From NCBI RefSeq assembly GCF_004342445.1, contig NZ_SLWW01000003.1, forward strand, positions 248,001 to 312,000: DNA of 64,000 nt. The letters are read 5' to 3'. Position 1 is the stretch's first letter, and the number at the start of each line of letters is the position of its first letter. The translations under genes and the position numbers were made by a program. This DNA is from Rhodovulum euryhalinum (GTDB lineage: Bacteria > Pseudomonadota > Alphaproteobacteria > Rhodobacterales > Rhodobacteraceae). The notes beneath the pieces were generated by a model. The model was not told where the DNA came from. It searched no databases and worked only from the letters and a program-made list of their open reading frames with translations. Below, piece by piece: positions 35,249 through 51,956 of this stretch.

Positions 35249-35302
35249 CCTTCTTCTTGGTGAAAATACTCCGGGGGTCCGGGGGCAGAGCCCCCGGCGG
35301 GT
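35249..35302 (+). repeat. Dispersed repeat, copy B
   Basis: CTTCTTCTTGGTGAAAATAC followed by a GC hairpin (GGGGGC-AGA-GCCCCC, with flanking CGG). It is nearly identical over about 40 bases to copy D at 51903 in the same orientation. The remnant transposon begins immediately after it (35303). Confidence 0.8.
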
Positions 35303-35375
35303 TGTTAGTGTTCAGTCGGTTTGATCCCTGTGGTTCAGTCGGTTTGATACCGGAAGCGGCCCCAAGTGTCCGGAC

Positions 35376-35586
35376 TGCCTCGGATGGTTTTTCCGCCACC
35401 AGTCGTTGATTGCGGACCGGCCGACGCGTCGGTCTGGTGGGAATGCCTTGGCGACTTCCTCGGCCAGGTCAATGAACGTCATCCGGTCGATCCGGGCGCG
35501 GATGAAGGCGCGCAGCTCGGGGTCGATGTCGAGCTTGGCGGGGTAGCCGGTGCGATGGGCGCGGATGTGGTCGTTCGGTTCAGGTC
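35376..35586 (-). pseudogene. Fragment of the element's terminal gene
   Basis: The minus-strand reading matches the last half of the 124-residue gene at 50855-51229, including RAHRTG, DPELRAFI and DWWRKNHPR. The stop codon has become CAG. Only the C-terminal portion remains, fused upstream to about 45 bases (35582-35630) of tape-measure gene sequence. Confidence 0.8.
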
Positions 35587-35629
35587 GGCGACGGCGTCAC
35601 GTTCCTCGCGCGCAGCGGCGGCCCCGCCT

Positions 35630-36092
35630 GTCGGTCGCGGTGTTCAGGTCATGGATCGCTTCGGCCAGTCCGGCTTGCGCGTCTGTTTCGTGCGGTAGGC
35701 CGGTGTAAGCCCGCCCGCGATCCGGCGGCTATTGAACGCGCTGCCATTGTCGAAGCCGACCTTCTGCGGGCGGTAATGCGTCTCGCACATGTGCAGGATC
35801 GCCGCCTCGGTCACATCGGAGTTTTCCGACTTGCCCACGGCCATCCCACGGTCTTGCGCGTGCGGCGATCCGCGAACGCGACAACCCAGGGGCAGCCGGC
35901 CGTGTCATCCGGCCAGCGCACGAGCATCTTGAATTCGCGCCCGTCGCCGTCGACCATGTCCATTGCGGCCATGCCCTCGGCCGTCTGCGGCAGGCGAAGG
36001 GTCAGGAGCGCGGCCGCCCGCTCTTCCCCCACCTCGGCCACAAGCCGCGCGATGGGGTCCATATCGTTCCAGCGCCGCAGGATCGTGTGATA
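35630..36092 (-). pseudogene. Truncated, frameshifted MuA-like transposase
   Basis: The minus strand matches the transposase at 46183-46605 (residues about 206-347, first two catalytic aspartates included), then jumps to a short piece around 46815-46850. A one-base deletion near 35840, in the codons for KTVGWAVGK, breaks the frame. The third catalytic residue and the whole N-terminal DNA-binding part are missing, so it cannot act as a transposase. Confidence 0.85.
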
Positions 36093-36154
36093 CGGGGGCC
36101 ACCTAAAATCGGCGCATTCCAGGATATGAGCTACACGAACTAGCGACCGTGGCC

Positions 36155-36298
36155 ATGCTCGATTTCATGACGATCGTTGATCTGCAAAGTAATGACCCAG
36201 ATCGCCCAAAGGGCTACTTCAAGCGCAACTTTGGGACACTTTCGCGATGGGCAGCGGTGGTGAAAGTTGAACCCCGAGAAGACGAAGCCAACGAGTGA
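36155..36298 (+). pseudogene. 47-residue frame or C-terminal gene fragment inside the remnant
   Basis: In a 271-base stretch (36093-36363) with no counterpart in the intact element, the plus strand has an open frame MLDFMTIVDLQ ... EDEANE. The frame is open back to a TAA near 36105 with no good start, so it looks like the end of a longer lost gene. Its base composition is more AT-rich than the surroundings. No family is recognised. Confidence 0.4.
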
Positions 36299-36596
36299 CC
36301 GCCGGTTGTCGGCAAGGTCGTGCGGTCGTGCGCATATCTGCGCAGGGTGAAATCACCCATACGCTGATTTCATAGTATTTTCCCTGACCGCCAGCCCCGA
36401 CAACGGCCTGCTCTGCCCCTGAAAAGCCCAGAAACTGTCAAAACCCCTACAACTCGCCACCCGCTAACCCGTTGATTTCAAATGCTGCGAAAATCCGATG
36501 GTGTCTAAACCTCCTGTCGCCGCTCAGGCAGCGCCCCCCGCGCGCGTCGCCCTGGCATGAGCCAGGGCGAAACCCGAAGACCGGCCACGCTCTTGC

Positions 36597-44475: not shown

Positions 44476-44776
44476 GGCCCTTCTTGGCGGATGGGCGGCG
44501 CGGGATCAAGCCGGGTCACTCCCGCCCCCGGCCCGCGCGGGGCCTTGCTCCGCTTGTCCGGCGTTGGGCGTGGCGCGGCCTCCGGCTGAGCGGCGACAGG
44601 AGGTTTTGACACCCTCGGATTTTAGCGCCGTTTGAAACCAATGGGTTAGCGGGTGGCGAGTTGCAGGTGTTTTGACAGTTTCGGGGCTTCTCAGGGGCCG
44701 AACGGGCCGTTACCGCGGCTGGCGGTCAGGAAAAACCCAATGAAATCAGAGGCGGCGCGCCCCACTCGGAAACTAG

Positions 44777-45289
44777 TCAGTTTCCGGTTTCCGATTGGGC
44801 AACCGACTGCTCGATGAGCTTCTGGAAGTCGCTCCGATGTGGTGCATCGCGCTCGTTTGACGCGAACTCCCTCATGCCCTCCATGAATGCCGCCATTGCG
44901 TTCGCGGCTATCTCAGGACGCGTAAGACCAGCGATGCGGTCACCGGCTAGGATTGGGCCCTCGCTCTTCGACTGCTGTGCCCACAACCATGCAAGCAGAC
45001 TGTCGACGACACGGAAGCATTGAAGGGCATAGTCGCGCTGGCTCAGCTTGGGCGAAAAGCTGTCGGCCGACCTCCCTACGAGCCAGTCGATAGAAACATC
45101 CATCCCATTGGCGATTGCGATGAGCGCATCTACGCCGGGCCGCTTCGCGCCTTTCACCCGCATGTAGCCTTCCATAGAACTCTTCGGGATGCCGCACCGC
45201 TCGGCCATTTCCCTAATGCTCAGCCCGCGCGTGAAGGCCAGATGCGCCAAGCGCCCCACAAGAATATCGGGCTCGTCAGTGTCAACCAT
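44777..45289 (-). CDS. Phage/transposon repressor with XRE-type helix-turn-helix
   Basis: A 170-residue repressor with an N-terminal HTH (about 12-60: GLSIREMAERCGIPKSSMEGY) and a helical C-terminal domain for oligomerisation. It lies at the left end facing away from the transposition genes, as the Mu c repressor does. The ATG at 45289 has AGGAAG before it; a TTG two codons upstream is an alternative. A dyad TGTCAA-CCA-TTGACA covers its start codon and the early promoter. Confidence 0.82.
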   Translation of the reverse strand: MVDTDEPDILVGRLAHLAFTRGLSIREMAERCGIPKSSMEGYMRVKGAKRPGVDALIAIANGMDVSIDWLVGRSADSFSPKLSQRDYALQCFRVVDSLLAWLWAQQSKSEGPILAGDRIAGLTRPEIAANAMAAFMEGMREFASNERDAPHRSDFQKLIEQSVAQSETGN

Positions 45290-45317
45290 TGACAACTTCC
45301 TAAAGGGTGCATAACGT
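45280..45317 (+). promoter_or_regulatory. Early promoter and operator of the Mu-like element
   Basis: TTGACA (45289-45294), a 17-base spacer and TAACGT (45312-45317) form a sigma-70-like promoter reading into the Ner-A-B genes. The -35 overlaps the dyad TGTCAA-CCA-TTGACA (45280-45294), a natural operator for the divergent repressor. Confidence 0.6.
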
Positions 45318-45354
45318 CCCCTATGGGAGACGACTTCGTTTGGACTACGTTCCT

Positions 45355-45570
45355 ATGTCAGGTTCTAACATACCAGAGGATGCCGAGAAAGCCCGTTACA
45401 GGCGTGTTCGCGCCGCGTTCGTGGCTCAAGGCACGACCTTGAATGCTTGGTGCTCAGACAACGGGACGCGCATTCAGAACGTGCGGGATGCCTTCTTTGG
45501 GAACTGGAAGGGTCCGAAAGCGCGGGCCTTGGTGGATCGTGTGAACGAAGCCGCCGGGATACGTCGATGA
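45355..45570 (+). CDS. Ner-like small DNA-binding protein
   Basis: A 71-residue basic protein between the repressor and the transposase, the position of Mu ner. It has EDAEKARYRRVRAAFVAQGTTLNAWC followed by a second helix that together could form a helix-turn-helix. Ner turns down early transcription in Mu. The start at 45355 has a weak ribosome-binding site; a GTG at 45307 is in frame. Its stop overlaps the transposase start (ATGA). Confidence 0.65.
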   Translation: MSGSNIPEDAEKARYRRVRAAFVAQGTTLNAWCSDNGTRIQNVRDAFFGNWKGPKARALVDRVNEAAGIRR

Positions 45571-47498
45571 GCCTTTGCGTTACCGACATAACAGGGCTTC
45601 CCGGCCGTCCCAAGACCCCGATGGGCGTCCGCAAGATGCTGAAGCGGTTGGGCGTCCCTGTTCGCCAAGTTGGTAAGAGGTTCGAATTCGAACTCGCCGA
45701 CCTTCCCAAGGACTTGCAGAACGAATGGCGTCGGCTGACGTGCGAAGAGCATCACCTCGACCCCGGCGAGTACGACGACGCGGCGCATGTCGCGCTTGAG
45801 CGTGCCCCGGTTTCGGTGCGCGAACGGGCGCATGACAATGCCCTGAAGCTGATGTTCGTGGCGAAGATGGAGGCCGCGGGCGCGACCTGGCCGGAGATCG
45901 CGAAGGAAGGGAAGGCCAAGTTTGGCCGCTTTCCATCATCGCGGAACACCGTCAAGGGCTGGAAGGACAAGACGGACGGCGTGGCACCTGCGAACTGGGC
46001 GCCCGCGCTGGCCCCGGCCTGGAAGGGCGGGGAGCGCGACGAGCCGACACCGGAAGCCTGGGCCTCCCTGATCAACCGCATGAACCTGTCGGGCAAGAAC
46101 GGGACAGGCTTCCCGCTGAAGCACGCCCATAAGCAGGTCGCGAAGGAAGCCGCGGCCAAGGGTTGGGATTGGCCGAAGTATCACACGATCCTGCGTCGCT
46201 GGAACGATATGGACCCCATTGCGCGCCTCGTGGCCGAGGTGGGGGAAGAGCGGGCGACCGCGCTCCTGACCCTTCGCTTGCCGCAGACGGCCGAGGGCAT
46301 GGCCGCAATGGACATGGTGGACGGCGACGGGCGCGAATTCAAGGTGCGGGTGCGCTGGCCGGATGGCACGGTCGGCTGCCCGTGGGTTGTCGCCTTCGCG
46401 GATCGCCGCACGCGCAAGACCGTGGGCTGGGCCGTGGGCAAGTCGGAAAACTCCGATGTGACCGAGGCGGCTATCGTGCATATGTGCGAGACGCACGGCC
46501 GCCCGCAGAGGGTCGGTTTCGACAACGGCAGCGCGTTCAACAGCCGCCGGATCGCGGGCGGGCTTACACCGGCTTACCGCACGAAACAGACCCGCAATCC
46601 CGACTGGGCCGTGCCCGGCGTGCTGAAGATTATCGGGGCCGAGCTGCACAACAAGGGCGTCGGCGCGAAGACCAGCAACCTTCAGGAAAACGTCTGGTCG
46701 CATCTGCGCCACGTGGACAACGACCCGCGCTTTCACGGGGCGCAGCGGCCGGGGCCGAACGATCCGACCCCGCCCAAGGGCGAGCCGGTCCCGCTCGAAG
46801 TCTTCGAAGCCGTCCTGGCCGAAGCCATCCATGACCTGAACACCGCGACCGACAACCGGGTGAAGGGGCTGAAGAAGGGCGAGAGCCGGGCGCAAGCGTT
46901 TGAACGGCTGTTGCAAGGCAATTCGAAGCGGGTTCTGACCCCCTTCATGCGCCGCCGCCTGGCCATGACCTGGAAGATCAAGACGGTGCGCGCGGATGGC
47001 CGGATCGCCTTCGACGGCGGCCTGTTCGGCGACCACACGACCCAGCGCGAGCTGCTGCGGCACGTGGGCAAGGAAGTCCTGATCGGCTTCAACCCCAGGG
47101 ACTTCGACGCCCCCGCGATGGTGTGCCATTGGGAGGACGAGACCCGGCGCGGGAGCCTCTTCCTCGAAGAGCTGCCGCCCGTCACGCCCACCCGGCACGG
47201 CAGCACCGAAGGCCGCCGCGCCGCCGCCACCGAAAAGCAGCGGGTGCGCCAGCTTGTCCGCAAGTTCCGTGCGGCGCACCCCGAGGCGGACGTGGCCAAG
47301 CTGCGCGAAGCTGCGATGGACGCCATCGGCTCGGCCGATGCGATCCGGCGGCCGGAAGCCGGGGTTGTCGAGCTTCACACCGATAGCGGCTTCAAGGCCG
47401 CTGAGCCCGGCGAGGGCGCCGCCGAGGTGTCTTACCTGACCGAGGAACGATTGAGGAACTTCATCGAGGCCACGGAACGCCAGTTGGCTTCGAGATGA
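45567..47498 (+). CDS. MuA-like DDE transposase
   Basis: A 643-residue transposase. The N-terminal part (1-60) is a Mu-type winged-helix end-binding domain (TPMGVRKMLKRLGVPVRQVGK). Residues about 240-400 form the RNase-H-like DDE core: an aspartate in MDMVDGDG (about 252), D319 (GFDNGSAF) and a glutamate in NLQENVWSHL (about 374). A Mu-type C-terminal domain follows. It should cut and join the TG...CA ends with the MuB-like partner. A frameshifted copy lies in the remnant at 35.6-36.1 kb. Confidence 0.9.
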   Translation: MSLCVTDITGLPGRPKTPMGVRKMLKRLGVPVRQVGKRFEFELADLPKDLQNEWRRLTCEEHHLDPGEYDDAAHVALERAPVSVRERAHDNALKLMFVAKMEAAGATWPEIAKEGKAKFGRFPSSRNTVKGWKDKTDGVAPANWAPALAPAWKGGERDEPTPEAWASLINRMNLSGKNGTGFPLKHAHKQVAKEAAAKGWDWPKYHTILRRWNDMDPIARLVAEVGEERATALLTLRLPQTAEGMAAMDMVDGDGREFKVRVRWPDGTVGCPWVVAFADRRTRKTVGWAVGKSENSDVTEAAIVHMCETHGRPQRVGFDNGSAFNSRRIAGGLTPAYRTKQTRNPDWAVPGVLKIIGAELHNKGVGAKTSNLQENVWSHLRHVDNDPRFHGAQRPGPNDPTPPKGEPVPLEVFEAVLAEAIHDLNTATDNRVKGLKKGESRAQAFERLLQGNSKRVLTPFMRRRLAMTWKIKTVRADGRIAFDGGLFGDHTTQRELLRHVGKEVLIGFNPRDFDAPAMVCHWEDETRRGSLFLEELPPVTPTRHGSTEGRRAAATEKQRVRQLVRKFRAAHPEADVAKLREAAMDAIGSADAIRRPEAGVVELHTDSGFKAAEPGEGAAEVSYLTEERLRNFIEATERQLASR

Positions 47499-47570
47499 AG
47501 CGGCCGGGCGGTGTAGCCGCACCGTCCCGACCGAACGCAGCGGGCGAAAGCCCACAACCAGGAGAAACCC

Positions 47571-48338
47571 ATGACAGCAAATGTCCACATGATCAAGCCC
47601 GAGGCACCGCCGGTGCAATGGGGCTTTATCGAGACCAGGAGCGCGCAGGCGATGGCCCTGGCGCTGCGCCGCGCCCGGGCGAAGGGGAAGATCGTCGCGA
47701 TTTCCGCGGCCTCCGGTGTCGGCAAGACCGCGACCGTCTTCCACCTCAAGCAGGACGCGCCGGGAACGCTTGTGTTCACGGCGAAGTCGGGCGAAGGCGG
47801 GGTTTGGAACCTCGCCTGCGGCCTCTGCAATCTGTTGGGCCTTGAGCCCCCGAATGGCCGCGACCTGGCGGCCGCGCGGGCCGAGATCGCCGACAAGATC
47901 GGGCCTGATGGCTTCCTGGTGATCGACGAGGCCCAGTACCTGATCAAGCGGAACCCGCGCGGCCCCGATGATCGGGACGCCCTGGAATGGGCGCGCCAAC
48001 TGGCCGAAGAGGGCTTCTTCGCCCTGGCGCTGGTGGGCGATCTGCGTCTCGACAAGGCGATCAACGACCTGCCCCAGCTCAAGCGGCGCACCCATCCGCG
48101 GGTGACCATCAGCCACGCCACCGAAGCGGACGTGGATCTGTATTGCCGGGCACGCGGGCTGCATGACGATGCCACCATCCGCAAGCTGGCCGACATCGCG
48201 CGGCGGAATGGCGGGTTGGGCGACGTGGAGGACATCTTCGCGACCGCACGCGACCTGGGCAAGACCGGGGTTCCTACCGTCGAAGACATCCTCGCCGCGC
48301 TCGAATACCTCGAATTCACCACCAGGAGGGCGAAGTGA
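47571..48338 (+). CDS. MuB-like AAA+ target-selection ATPase
   Basis: A 255-residue AAA ATPase with Walker A (SAASGVGKTA, residues 45-54) and Walker B (GFLVIDEAQYL, about 111-121). The position directly after the MuA-like gene and the size match MuB, which coats target DNA, recruits the transposase and prevents self-insertion. The 72 bases between the two genes include a CGGCCGGGCGG stretch and a GGAGAAACCC ribosome site. Confidence 0.9.
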   Translation: MTANVHMIKPEAPPVQWGFIETRSAQAMALALRRARAKGKIVAISAASGVGKTATVFHLKQDAPGTLVFTAKSGEGGVWNLACGLCNLLGLEPPNGRDLAAARAEIADKIGPDGFLVIDEAQYLIKRNPRGPDDRDALEWARQLAEEGFFALALVGDLRLDKAINDLPQLKRRTHPRVTISHATEADVDLYCRARGLHDDATIRKLADIARRNGGLGDVEDIFATARDLGKTGVPTVEDILAALEYLEFTTRRAK

Positions 48339-48403
48339 TGACCGACAAGACCGAAGACCGCGACGTGTTGCTCTGGGTGAGCGGGCTGAGCGGAAAGGGC
48401 TGA
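48338..48403 (+). CDS. 21-residue frame at the MuB/tape-measure junction
   Basis: An ATG overlapping the MuB-like stop (TGATG) opens MTDKTEDRDVLLWVSGLSGKG before a stop. It could be the first codons of a former phage gene cut short when the structural module was lost, or a coupling peptide for the next gene, whose GTG start lies 4 bases on. Low confidence that it is made. Confidence 0.35.
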   Translation: MTDKTEDRDVLLWVSGLSGKG

Positions 48404-48406
48404 GCC

Positions 48407-50290
48407 GTGAGCTTCGTCGTCCAGGGTTATCTGAATGTCAATCCAGACGGCGCCGTCACGGGCGTGCGGATCCTCAAGGAGGACCTTGAGAAGCTGCGCC
48501 TCGCTGGCGTCAATGTCAGCAAGAGCCTGAGCGCGAGCAAGGAACTGCTCGGCGGCATCGGCCAGCGGTCGCATGTCGCGGCGGGCAGCGTCGCGAACCT
48601 CGGCGCGCAGTTCAACGACATCGGCATGATGATGGCGGCGGGGCAGTCGCCGTTGATGCTGGCCATCCAGCAGGGCACCCAGATCAGCCAGGTGCTGGGC
48701 CCGATGGGCGCGCAGGGCGCAGTGGCGGCGCTGGGGGGCGCATTCCGGTCGATGATCAGCCCGGTCAGCCTGGCGACCATCGCCATTGTCGCGGGCGTGG
48801 CGGCCGTGGGGCAATGGGCCATCGCAGCGGCCAGGGGCGGCGAGGAGGCACGCGACTTCGCGGATAGCCTGGACGACCTCGTCGCCTCCATGGACGAGTT
48901 GAACGCGATCACGAGCGTCTATTCGGCCAGCGGCCTGGTGGAGCTGAAGCAGAAATACGGCGAGGTGACCGACCAGGTGCTCGCCCTGGTCGAGGCGCAG
49001 CGCCAGCAGGCCCTGGCAGAGGCCGACAGCGCGGCCCGCGGGGCCATCGAGGCGCTGGCCGACGAGTTCCGCATCGTTGCGCTTGCGGCGGGCGAGACCG
49101 GCCGCACGGCCGAGCAGTCCTTCACGATCATGGCGAACCGGCTGGGCATCTCGAAGGACAGCGCGCGCGAGCTTGCCGCGGCGTTCCACGATCTGCGCGC
49201 GGCTGGCGACTTTTCCGACCGCTCCGCGGCGATGGCCCGCATTCGGGACGTTCTCAAGGGCAGCGCCGTTGCGGGCTCCGAGCTCTACGCCGCCCTTCTG
49301 GACGCCGAGAGCACGATGCGCCAGCTCGCCGCGGCCGCCCCGAAGGCCGGGTGGCTGGCGGGCATGATTTCCGAGGCCCGCACGCTTGCCAGCGAACTGT
49401 GGGACGCGGCCAGGGCGCGGGCGGCGGCGATGGCCGAGGCCACCACAGACGCGGCGGGCAACCCGACCGAATTCGGGCCGGGATCGCGCGCGCGCAGCCG
49501 CCCGGAGCGAATGGGGTTCGAAGCATCGGAAGAGGCGATCTATGGCCCGGCCGTCCGGACGCGGCAAGGCGGGGCCGCCGCTGCGCGCGAGGAACGTGAC
49601 GCCGTTGCCGACCTGATCCTGTCGCTGCAAGGCGAGGTGGACATTCTCCGCGAGGCGGACCCGGTGCAGCAGGAGCTTATCCGGCTGCGCGAACACATGG
49701 TGGACGCAACCGACGCCGAGCGGGCGAAGATCGAAGATCTCATTCGCGCCAAGGAGCGCGAGATCAACCTTGGCCAGACCCAGAAGCAGACCTGGCAATC
49801 GCTCGGGCAGATCGCGCTGACCGCGCTGAACGACATGGACTCGGCCCTGGACATGCTCTTGCGGTCGCTTCAGGAAGGGGCCTTCCTGGGCAGCGGGCCG
49901 CTGGGCGGTCTCTTCGGCGGTCAGAACGCAAGTGGCCTCGGCGGGCTCTTCGGCATGATCGTCGGCGGGTTCGGCGGCTTCCGCGCCTCGGGCGGATCGG
50001 TGCAGCCGGGCATGTATTACGAGGTGGGCGAGCGCGGGCGCGAACGGTTCTACCCCGGCGTGGCGGGCACCATCGTTCCGACCCCGGCGATGACGCGCGC
50101 GAACACCGGGGGCGCGGCGCAGTTCTCCATCACGGTGAACGTCAACGGCGCGACGGGCGACCGCGACCTGGAAGCGCGCGCCTATGCGGGCACGTCGCGC
50201 GCCATCGAGGCGGCCTTCGCGCAGTACGATGCCGAGCGCCTGCCGCTGCGCATCCGCGAGATCAACGACCAACCCGAGAGGATCGGATGA
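48407..50290 (+). CDS. Phage tail tape-measure-like protein
   Basis: A 627-residue protein, helical and Ala-rich, with a hydrophobic middle (about 95-145) and the typical C-terminal GGSVQPGMYYEVGERGRERF segment of tail length tape-measure proteins. It begins with a GTG after GGAAAGGGC. Mu-like phages need such a protein inside the tail tube, but no other tail gene exists in this element, so here it is an orphan. It is long and uninterrupted, suggesting selection or recent loss of the rest. A fragment also survives in the remnant copy. Confidence 0.82.
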   Translation: MSFVVQGYLNVNPDGAVTGVRILKEDLEKLRLAGVNVSKSLSASKELLGGIGQRSHVAAGSVANLGAQFNDIGMMMAAGQSPLMLAIQQGTQISQVLGPMGAQGAVAALGGAFRSMISPVSLATIAIVAGVAAVGQWAIAAARGGEEARDFADSLDDLVASMDELNAITSVYSASGLVELKQKYGEVTDQVLALVEAQRQQALAEADSAARGAIEALADEFRIVALAAGETGRTAEQSFTIMANRLGISKDSARELAAAFHDLRAAGDFSDRSAAMARIRDVLKGSAVAGSELYAALLDAESTMRQLAAAAPKAGWLAGMISEARTLASELWDAARARAAAMAEATTDAAGNPTEFGPGSRARSRPERMGFEASEEAIYGPAVRTRQGGAAAAREERDAVADLILSLQGEVDILREADPVQQELIRLREHMVDATDAERAKIEDLIRAKEREINLGQTQKQTWQSLGQIALTALNDMDSALDMLLRSLQEGAFLGSGPLGGLFGGQNASGLGGLFGMIVGGFGGFRASGGSVQPGMYYEVGERGRERFYPGVAGTIVPTPAMTRANTGGAAQFSITVNVNGATGDRDLEARAYAGTSRAIEAAFAQYDAERLPLRIREINDQPERIG

Positions 50291-50495
50291 AGCGCTGAAG
50301 GATTGAATTGCGCGGGGGTCTCCATCCCTCGCGCATGGCCGCCGGGCACCAGGGCTGGCGGCAACGGGCCGGTTGCCTTTCCCCAGGGGGCGACCGGCCT
50401 ACCCCGCCGCGCCAACGGCGGGCATGGGCGGGCCGGTCGCGCTCTCTCGGCCGGTCCGCCCTCCATCCACCCCGCCGCGTGACGGAGTGAGCGAC

Positions 50496-50858
50496 GTGAC
50501 CGACAGCTATCCGAAACCCCCGGCCCACGCCGCACCCTATGTCGATATCCTCGGCTCCGCTCTGGCCGTGCGGTTCCTGATGGCCTTCGGCGGGGCTGAA
50601 CTCTACTGGGCCGAGAACCCGGGCGAGCGCTCGCGCGTGGTGCAGATCGTTGGCGTTGACCTTGCCAGTGCGCTGGCAAGGGCGGACCTTCCCCCCCGCG
50701 TGCCGCTCGCCAAGCCCTGGCTGGCCGCCTGCCTGGCGCATGAGGGGCTGAGCGTGGCCGAGATCGCCCGCACGCTGCACGCCAGCGACGTGGCGGTGCG
50801 CGGCTGGCTGCGCAAGAACCCTTACCGGCCGTCTCCTGCCATGTGGGGGGACGCATGA
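50496..50858 (+). CDS. Mor-like (Mu middle-operon regulator family) DNA-binding protein
   Basis: A 120-residue protein with the Mor/C-type layout: a small strand-turn region (ILGSALAVRFLMAFGGAELYW) and a C-terminal helix-turn-helix (LSVAEIARTLHASDVAVRGWL). Mor activates late Mu transcription. The GTG at 50496 has GGAG before it; 50487 is also in frame. Late genes to be activated are missing here, so its job may be altered. The preceding 205 bases (50291-50495) hold no gene. Confidence 0.68.
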   Translation: MTDSYPKPPAHAAPYVDILGSALAVRFLMAFGGAELYWAENPGERSRVVQIVGVDLASALARADLPPRVPLAKPWLAACLAHEGLSVAEIARTLHASDVAVRGWLRKNPYRPSPAMWGDA

Positions 50859-51229
50859 GCCGCGCCCAGTCGCATATCCTGGCGGCGCGGGCCGCCCTGG
50901 CCGAGGCCCGCAAGCTGCTCGACAACGTCTCGGCCGAGCTCGACCGCCTCCAGGTCGCCGTCCGGGCCGAGCTTGCAGAGGGTGTTCCAACGCCCCTTCA
51001 AACGCCCCTCGAAGACCTGCCAGAACCGAGCGAGCACCGCCGCGCCCATCGCACCGGCTTCCCCTCGAAGATCGACACCGACCCCGAGTTGCGCGCCTTC
51101 ATCCTGGCCAGAATCGACCGGATGGGCTTCGTCCCCCTGGCGGCCGAAGTCGCCCAAGCCTTCCCGCCCAAGCGCCGCGTCGGCAAGAGTGGGATCTACG
51201 ACTGGTGGCGGAAAAACCATCCGAGGTAG
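50855..51229 (+). CDS. Small element protein with coiled-coil N-terminus and HTH-like C-terminus
   Basis: A 124-residue protein overlapping the Mor-like stop (ATGA). The N-terminus (about 1-45) is helical, and the C-terminal part PPKRRVGKSGIYDWWRKNHPR looks like a short DNA-binding tail. Its C-terminal half is conserved in the remnant copy, so it belongs to the element and is not host DNA. The function is unknown. It ends 73 bases before the right terminus. Confidence 0.7.
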   Translation: MSRAQSHILAARAALAEARKLLDNVSAELDRLQVAVRAELAEGVPTPLQTPLEDLPEPSEHRRAHRTGFPSKIDTDPELRAFILARIDRMGFVPLAAEVAQAFPPKRRVGKSGIYDWWRKNHPR

Positions 51230-51310
51230 TCCGGACTCTTGGGTCCACTTCCGGTATCAAAACCCCTGTAATCCCCCTGTCAGAACCACCTGTAACTACA
51301 CACCGGCCGC

Positions 51311-51377
51311 GTGGGGGCGCTGCCCCCGTCGCCCGTTCCGGGCGACTCCCCCCGGAGTATTTTCGCCAAGAAGAAGG
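51311..51377 (-). repeat. Dispersed repeat, copy C
   Basis: On the minus strand: CTTCTTCTTGGCGAAAATAC, then two GC hairpins, GTCGCCCG/CGGGCGAC and GGGGGC/GCCCCC. It is the same family as copies B and D but with a longer hairpin region. It begins 4 bases past the target duplication of the intact element and ends at the PqiA-like gene's stop. Confidence 0.78.
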
Positions 51378-51902: not shown

Positions 51903-51956
51903 CCTTCTTCTTGGCACAAATACTCCGGGGGTCCGGGGGCAGAGCCCCCGGCGGGT
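51903..51956 (+). repeat. Dispersed repeat, copy D
   Basis: CTTCTTCTTGGCACAAATAC followed by the GC hairpin GGGGGC-AGA-GCCCCC, essentially the same as copy B. It lies in the 215-base gap between the MlaF-like gene and the PqiA-like gene. Confidence 0.8.

Follow-up and report, generated by a model that had tools for sequence, protein, structure and literature searches.

Compact Mu-type elements with capsid and tape-measure genes in Rhodovulum and related genera, a candidate family of phage satellites

Is a Mu-type element that has kept its transposition genes and a single tail gene a decaying prophage or a mobile unit of its own kind? This question is raised by an element of Rhodovulum euryhalinum, located in the window, i.e. 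the whole stretch of 64,000 nucleotides analysed here (GCF_004342445.1, contig NZ_SLWW01000003.1, positions 248,001 to 312,000). The element spans positions 44587-51302 (6,716 bp). As the original prediction had stated, it has exact TG...CA ends and is flanked by an exact 5-bp target duplication, CCGGC, at 44582-44586 and 51303-51307. At the left junction CCGGC is followed by TGAGCGGCGACAGG, and at the right junction it is preceded by AACTACACA. By eye, the left and right ends are inverted relatives of the form TG N7 ACAGG N GGTT N TGACA. The following features were assigned in the window:

35303-36526, minus strand: second family copy, scrambled, 1.2 kb (DNA search)
44582-44586, no strand: left target-duplication copy CCGGC (sequence)
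44587-44613, plus strand: left terminal site L1 (TGAGCGGCGACAGGAGGTTTTGACACC), with a similar site ~65 bp inward (by eye)
44777-45295, minus strand: repressor, HTH, CI type (Pfam/PHROGs, phrog_8, 3.7e-12)
45307-45570, plus strand: Ner-like small protein (phrog_15281, 1.7e-14)
45567-47498, plus strand: MuA-type DDE transposase A, 643 aa (DDE_2, 7.7e-18; phrog_310, 2.3e-61)
47571-48338, plus strand: MuB-type AAA ATPase B, 255 aa (AAA_22 and Phage-MuB_C)
48335-48403, plus strand: truncated small ORF at the B-TMP junction, from a 106-aa R. marinum ORF (comparison with R. marinum)
48407-50290, plus strand: tape-measure protein TMP, 627 aa, open (TMP_2, 3e-17)
50496-50858, plus strand: Mor/C-type late transcription activator (phrog_836, 1.4e-17)
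50855-51229, plus strand: RE gene, 124 aa, long helix and C-terminal HTH, marker of the compact class, adjoining the right end
51254-51302, minus strand: right terminal sites R2 and R1 (by eye)
51303-51307, no strand: right target-duplication copy CCGGC (sequence)
51313-51327, no strand: host palindrome GGGGGCGCTGCCCCC, adjoining the window insertion, one of 37 in the genome

The predicted order repressor-Ner-A-B with a Mor-like activator was recovered by Pfam and PHROGs; the name Ner is given by position and size, phrog_15281 being a family of unknown function. The repressor, Ner-like, A, B, TMP and Mor-like genes are all open. In A, residues D254, D319 and E374, presumably the Mu catalytic residues, are present in all eight aligned rows. 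MuA and MuB homologues with a DDE motif, TG...CA ends and a 5-bp duplication, by which Mu-like phages are recognised, are thus all found in the window element. The lone 627-residue tape-measure gene is indeed uninterrupted, and besides it Pfam and PHROGs revealed no gene for head, packaging, baseplate or lysis functions within the element. The RE gene, the truncated ORF between B and TMP and the second family copy had been missed at first.

The nearest relative is a 9,274-bp element in Rhodovulum marinum DSM 18063 (G300), flanked by the duplication GCCAA. Between B and TMP it contains an additional 2.6 kb with three small ORFs, GemA and a gpT major capsid gene (PF10124, 5.9e-123). At ~48379 the window sequence jumps from inside the first of these ORFs, which is intact in R. 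marinum, to the TMP leader. Because the relative has GemA and a capsid gene besides TMP, we read the window copy, on sequence comparison, as an internal deletion of a compact element, and its tape-measure gene would therefore be an orphan left over after the neighbouring capsid gene was lost. Judged by the limits of DNA matches, the host genome is the one among 16 genus genomes that has the junction. The suggestion that MuB directly before the tape-measure gene might be a stable arrangement was accordingly not borne out. Each of the seven genes compared between the two copies has a dN/dS below 1 (A 0.22, B 0.12, TMP 0.41, Mor 0.25, RE 0.38, repressor 0.26 and Ner 0.37). The window copy has kept A, B, both ends, TMP, the activator and RE and lacks GemA and gpT; therefore it probably can jump, i.e. 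transposition may have outlasted the loss of the capsid gene. Its effect on a helper could be a change of the tail at most. One could also regard this copy as a functional, minimal satellite carrying a tape measure rather than as a decaying derivative, as all its genes are open, the duplication is exact and the dN/dS values of TMP and RE are low enough to suggest selection. However, it is a single copy, gpT is kept in both other TMP-bearing elements, and the selection may be older than the deletion. We consider a functional minimal satellite improbable and treat the window copy as a deletion derivative.

RE relatives were found in 22 of 295 genomes of the host's family, which we take to be the Rhodobacteraceae in GTDB, and A relatives (E up to 0.001) in 35 of the 295. 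At class level, RE was present in 3 of 385 genomes, the host and two with marginal matches. Of the 22 RE genomes, 10 (host counted) have A on the same contig as RE at a distance of 2-8 kb; the others have the two genes on different contigs or broken, or gave no A. The gene order between the ends was compiled for ten elements: the window element, that of R. marinum, seven from other genomes and one metagenome contig. Intact compact elements measure 8.0-9.3 kb and follow the plan repressor (minus strand)-Ner-A-B-small ORFs-GemA-gpT-(gpI or TMP)-RE. The gpI version sometimes has Dec and gpG, and the Mor-like activator precedes gpT or RE. A, B and RE are present in all ten, GemA and gpT in nine, with the window copy as the exception. 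gpI occurs in seven elements and TMP in the remaining three; both together were never seen. The Ner-like protein was found in nine, the repressor in seven by sequence likeness, the Mor-like activator in eight and, by PHROGs, in a ninth (G035), whereas Dec (virion structural, phrog_1731) and gpG (Phage_tail_S) occur in two each. Seven of the ten elements have exact 5-bp duplications (CCGGC, GCCAA, GCGGC, TTTGC, GCTGA, GCAGA and TGCCC); none was found for G173 and G302, and the metagenome contig breaks off at what is apparently the right end of its element. The original prediction had asked for the same compact arrangement recurring at different sites with 5-bp duplications, and for the class of compact elements these seven provide it; the compact class as such is well supported.

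The end sites of the family read TG N6 TTCANNNGGTTTGATAC, from which the Rhodovulum ends deviate. Left end pairs L1/L2 were 64-66 bp apart in 9 of 17 loci scanned and right end pairs R1/R2 22-23 bp apart in 6 of them. GemA, gpT and RE occur together on five IMG/VR contigs, and A and B are also present on two of these; a 9,157-bp contig (L127) is a near-complete element. Many copies are broken, with one in-frame stop in gpT of G099 and one each in gpI and Mor of G031. At two loci (L048 and L065) the RE stop lies ~600-700 bp from the right end, compared to the usual 70-100 bp, and gpG is found there in G159. Palleronia rufa MOLA 401 (G066) has eight RE-like places, several with stops, and broken A and gpT pieces, so that decayed copies occur throughout its genome.

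The position of the family relative to full-length Mu-like prophages was analysed by trees. In the A tree a branch with 100/100 support parts 13 compact rows from 21 full-length rows (19 prophages and two phages), where Portal_Mu accompanies A on the contig in 18 of the 19 prophage rows (exception G215). Eleven of the 13 compact rows have A and RE within ~8.5 kb. The remaining two genomes gave no Mu portal match; G066 is broken at a contig end and G207 is split over contigs. No full-length relative with a compact-clade A was seen among the 30 of 35 A-bearing family genomes on the tree, which leaves aside G078, G108, G126, G242 and G248, further A copies in some genomes, the partial L073, L111, in which A was not found, and L123, whose A is cut off. 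That only full-length prophages would carry this sequence in relatives, the outcome named beforehand as speaking against a stable class, was hence not observed. The gpT tree unites 9 of 11 compact rows with 99/99 support, with G239 and G302 outside; this tree is without L069 (N-terminus missing) and L045 (broken), L064 enters with the part before its stop, and 17 of the 20 full-length rows have Portal_Mu on the same contig within a few kb (exceptions G169, G091 and G040). A structure model of gpT had a mean pLDDT of 43 (eight sequences) and was set aside.

Portal_Mu was detected in 35 of 295 genomes (34 above the cut-off), a set that did not include G300, G302 and G305, and gpT at any strength in 81. 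The Portal_Mu search revealed no portal beside any compact gpT locus, and whole-genome searches gave no Mu portal match in G031, G035, G099, G154, G159, G173, G178 and G242. A Mu-type portal is present in 5 of 21 RE-positive genomes (host aside) versus 30 of 273 RE-negative ones. G239 contains a compact element and a full-length prophage 2.1 Mb apart. In the host genome gpT and portal are both absent. The window element could be a one-off defective Mu-like prophage whose structural genes were lost by chance, and its deletion junction, seen in no other genome searched, as well as three more deletion copies or remnants in the host are in line with this. Yet the A clade holds no full-length relative, and compact relatives with their own duplications occur in many genera. 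A one-off defective prophage is thus contradicted for the family and, as an account of the locus, very improbable; it is partly true of the window copy, as a deletion derivative of a compact element.

Two kinds of tape-measure genes occupy the position before RE, TMP_2 in the window and R. marinum elements and PhageMin_Tail (3.6e-50, 673 aa) in L127. The likeness between the two kinds is limited to the C-terminal ~90 aa (36%). As two Pfam families are found at the same position, a tape measure was probably gained or swapped there more than once. Prophage TMP ORFs have 778-870 aa in 9 of 11 stretches with a match, a further prophage match lies in a 1560-aa ORF cut by the stretch, and two phage TMPs have 1098 and 1231 aa, compared to 627 aa in the window. 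A deliberate shortening of the window TMP is unsupported, since the TMP of vB_RhkS_P1 (643 aa) and that of a G302 prophage (~660 aa) are similarly short. This prophage (L060, G302:C1:2680000-2697000) has the TMP nearest to that of the window (48% over 518 aa); its length is an estimate, as the frame is apparently broken near the end, and by eye its capsid gene is unlike gpT.

A search of 50,697 phage records with the RE protein (E 0.01) gave no match. Its structure model, which is good locally (pLDDT 87), shows a long helix and then a helical HTH-like end. Foldseek of the model against the PDB gave a best E of 2.2, and comparison with the sequences of solved structures gave nothing of note. 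In hhalign, the RE profile aligned with the N-terminal HTH of Mu gp27-type small terminases (P 2.2e-4, score 32.2, probability 45%); the gp27 profile is a 7-sequence alignment, and 150 column shuffles peak at score 20.8. Profiles of Mor, gpT and MuA gave P 0.18-0.6, and two single gp27 sequences gave weak matches (P 0.28 and 0.032). The commonest Pfam match of RE is the generic HTH_32 (9 of 14 members), and the PHROGs small-terminase family matches 2 of 14 members (best 0.0034), which does not exceed the match to a head-tail connector family. The likeness of RE to the Mu gp27 small terminase is therefore suggestive and weak. Alternatively, RE may act as a target selector.

Judged from their genes, the compact elements have kept transposition functions and genes that would alter a virion, with much else needed for a virion absent. 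They are small and without a complete virion or lysis set: a full head, packaging, tail and lysis set is absent from the 6.7-kb window copy (Pfam/PHROGs), and its relatives, 8.0-9.3 kb in size, were checked for the portal. Genes that could remodel a virion are gpT, gpI and TMP in the family, and the weakly TerS-like RE; the window copy is without gpT. We favour, as the rather likely reading, that the compact elements are phage satellites which transpose by the Mu pathway and remodel the virions of a helper, the window copy being internally deleted. This fits the satellite guess of the original prediction for the compact family, and we infer the satellite function from gene content. Counting against it are the low share of RE-positive genomes with a Mu-type portal, the absence of gpT and portal from the host genome, the many broken copies, the gpT rows of G239 and G302 outside the compact group, and the low probability of the gp27 match. 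Thereby, A and B would copy the element to new sites, preferably at intergenic palindromes. Upon infection or induction of a helper (a full-length Mu-like phage or other siphophage), the Mor-like activator would turn on late genes. Terminase, portal, tail and lysis proteins would be taken from the helper, the element would provide its own capsid protein or capsid and tape measure, and RE (HTH, TerS-like) would direct packaging to the element DNA. The full combination of replicative Mu-type transposition, a swappable virion cassette, TerS-like retargeting of packaging and parking at rare terminator-like palindromes has, in our view, an even chance; the cassette would be capsid and protease, or capsid and tape measure of either Pfam family.

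A different reading takes the compact elements as Mu-type transposons that carry structural genes as defence cargo, where a foreign capsid or tape measure would sabotage phages, and that are not packaged. A and B could be enough for the elements to spread within a genome, there are deletion copies as small as ~350 bp, and the available portion of PMC12987554 describes a satellite protein that blocks helper tail assembly. On the other hand, RE is small-terminase-like, the retained genes are a head-making set (gpT, gpI, Dec and gpG), and the compact class extends across many genera, a spread that needs cell-to-cell transfer. We regard unpackaged defence cargo as rather unlikely and return to phage satellites. 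The well-known satellites of the P4-like, PICI, cf-PICI and PLE types generally integrate by a site-specific integrase, and PLE is not known to use MuA/MuB transposition. Among the window-copy genes other than the MuA-type transposase, no integrase match was found (Pfam/PHROGs).

GemA-type proteins, late activators and 5-bp duplications are features of Mu-like phages. The Rhodobacteraceae Mu-like phages RS1, vB_ThpS-P1 and vB_RhkS_P1 as well as prophages share A-B transposition and gpT/gpI heads with the compact elements. However, the three phages are 38.8-40.2 kb in size and, as far as they are annotated, encode terminase, portal, tail and lysis proteins; gpI lies before gpT in them, whereas gpT precedes gpI in compact elements. 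Full-length A is 22-30% identical to compact A and forms a separate clade, and the full-length forms gave no RE match. cf-PICIs, MulchRoom and MiniFlayer are small and have own capsid genes, like the compact elements, and cf-PICIs and MulchRoom use helper tails. Capsid-forming PICIs, MulchRoom and MiniFlayer encode full head and packaging sets, according to the available part of PMC10690885. In contrast to cf-PICIs and the Streptomyces satellites, the compact family, which moves by MuA/MuB, has no recognised portal or terminase large subunit. Putative tmp genes are indicated for cf-PICIs in a figure legend. PLE satellites of Vibrio cholerae have their own TMP, like three compact elements; a 2026 report (PMC12987554, available portion) describes it as built into chimeric, shorter tails. 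They are larger, ~18 kb (PMC10803314, excerpt). A description of a Mu-type satellite was not found in the literature searched, most subscription journals and preprints being outside it. If true, a satellite family based on Mu transposition would represent a second way of being a satellite, head and tail-length genes would, as is suggested, be exchangeable cargo at one position, and Rhodovulum laboratory strains would offer a natural system for satellite effects on capsid and tail.

Most of the insertions with known ends adjoin a palindrome. Both ends are known for 13 elements or deletion copies, and a perfect GGGGGC-NNN-GCCCCC was found within 45 bp of 10 of them. The host genome has 37 such places (control pattern: 1), and the zone of up to 45 bp around them covers ~0.09% of the genome; all four host copies or remnants adjoin one. 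The terminator-like GGGGGCNNNGCCCCC is located at 51313-51327, 35281-35295 and 51935-51949, and beside both window copies it is followed by a CGGAGTATTTT stretch. The palindrome was also present at four of five further right ends and one of two further left ends in G305, and at a second G035 copy. At L048 and L066 the insertion splits the palindrome itself. No perfect palindrome lay within 45 bp at three of the 13 (L064, L065 and L054; L065 has one with two mismatches), none within 350 bp after RE at L070, L073, L075, L076, L074, L072, L069 and L047, loci with undetermined ends, and none in the same range in three IMG/VR contigs. As a control, 17 full-length prophages were searched in the 8 kb upstream of A and none had the palindrome (up to one mismatch), which says little, because the test misses insertion-split palindromes and, applied to compact loci, detects a perfect palindrome in just 2 of 7. 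The copies may be partly non-independent, as 35303-36526 and the contig-8 remnant share a flank and four G305 right ends share theirs; shared flanks may be the host repeat itself or a duplication. Compact elements may actively target the palindrome. In Tn7/Tn5053-type transposons a TniQ/TnsD target selector adjoins transposase and ATPase; no TniQ match was found among the seven window-element genes (Pfam/PHROGs). The palindrome association suggests that a Mu-type element can have a strong natural bias for its target. Phage Ab30/2P1 shows a milder preference, with ~5% of Mu-type insertions near repetitive extragenic palindromes (PMC5977238, available part), compared to the 10 of 13 resident compact elements.

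When the host genome was searched by DNA, three sequences of the family came up in addition to the window element, namely the 1.2-kb copy, a ~350-bp copy (contig 5) and a remnant of a right end (contig 8). The 1.2-kb copy contains a left end, two A pieces, a 53-bp TMP piece, an RE piece and a consensus-type right end, and a 5-bp duplication is absent around it. Some DNA match was found in 14 of 16 genus genomes (host counted), mostly short; the long ones are in G300 and G305. G305 also has deletion forms, one of which measures 2,477 bp and is flanked by its own duplication GAAAC. At the right ends of 35303-36526 and of the remnant (G000:C8, ~233951), ~53 letters of host flank including the palindrome are identical and then diverge. 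The contig-5 copy (L009, G000:C5:92075-92423) consists of both ends and 55 bp of A, is flanked by ACCCA and ACCCG, and resembles a MITE-like Mu-type derivative.
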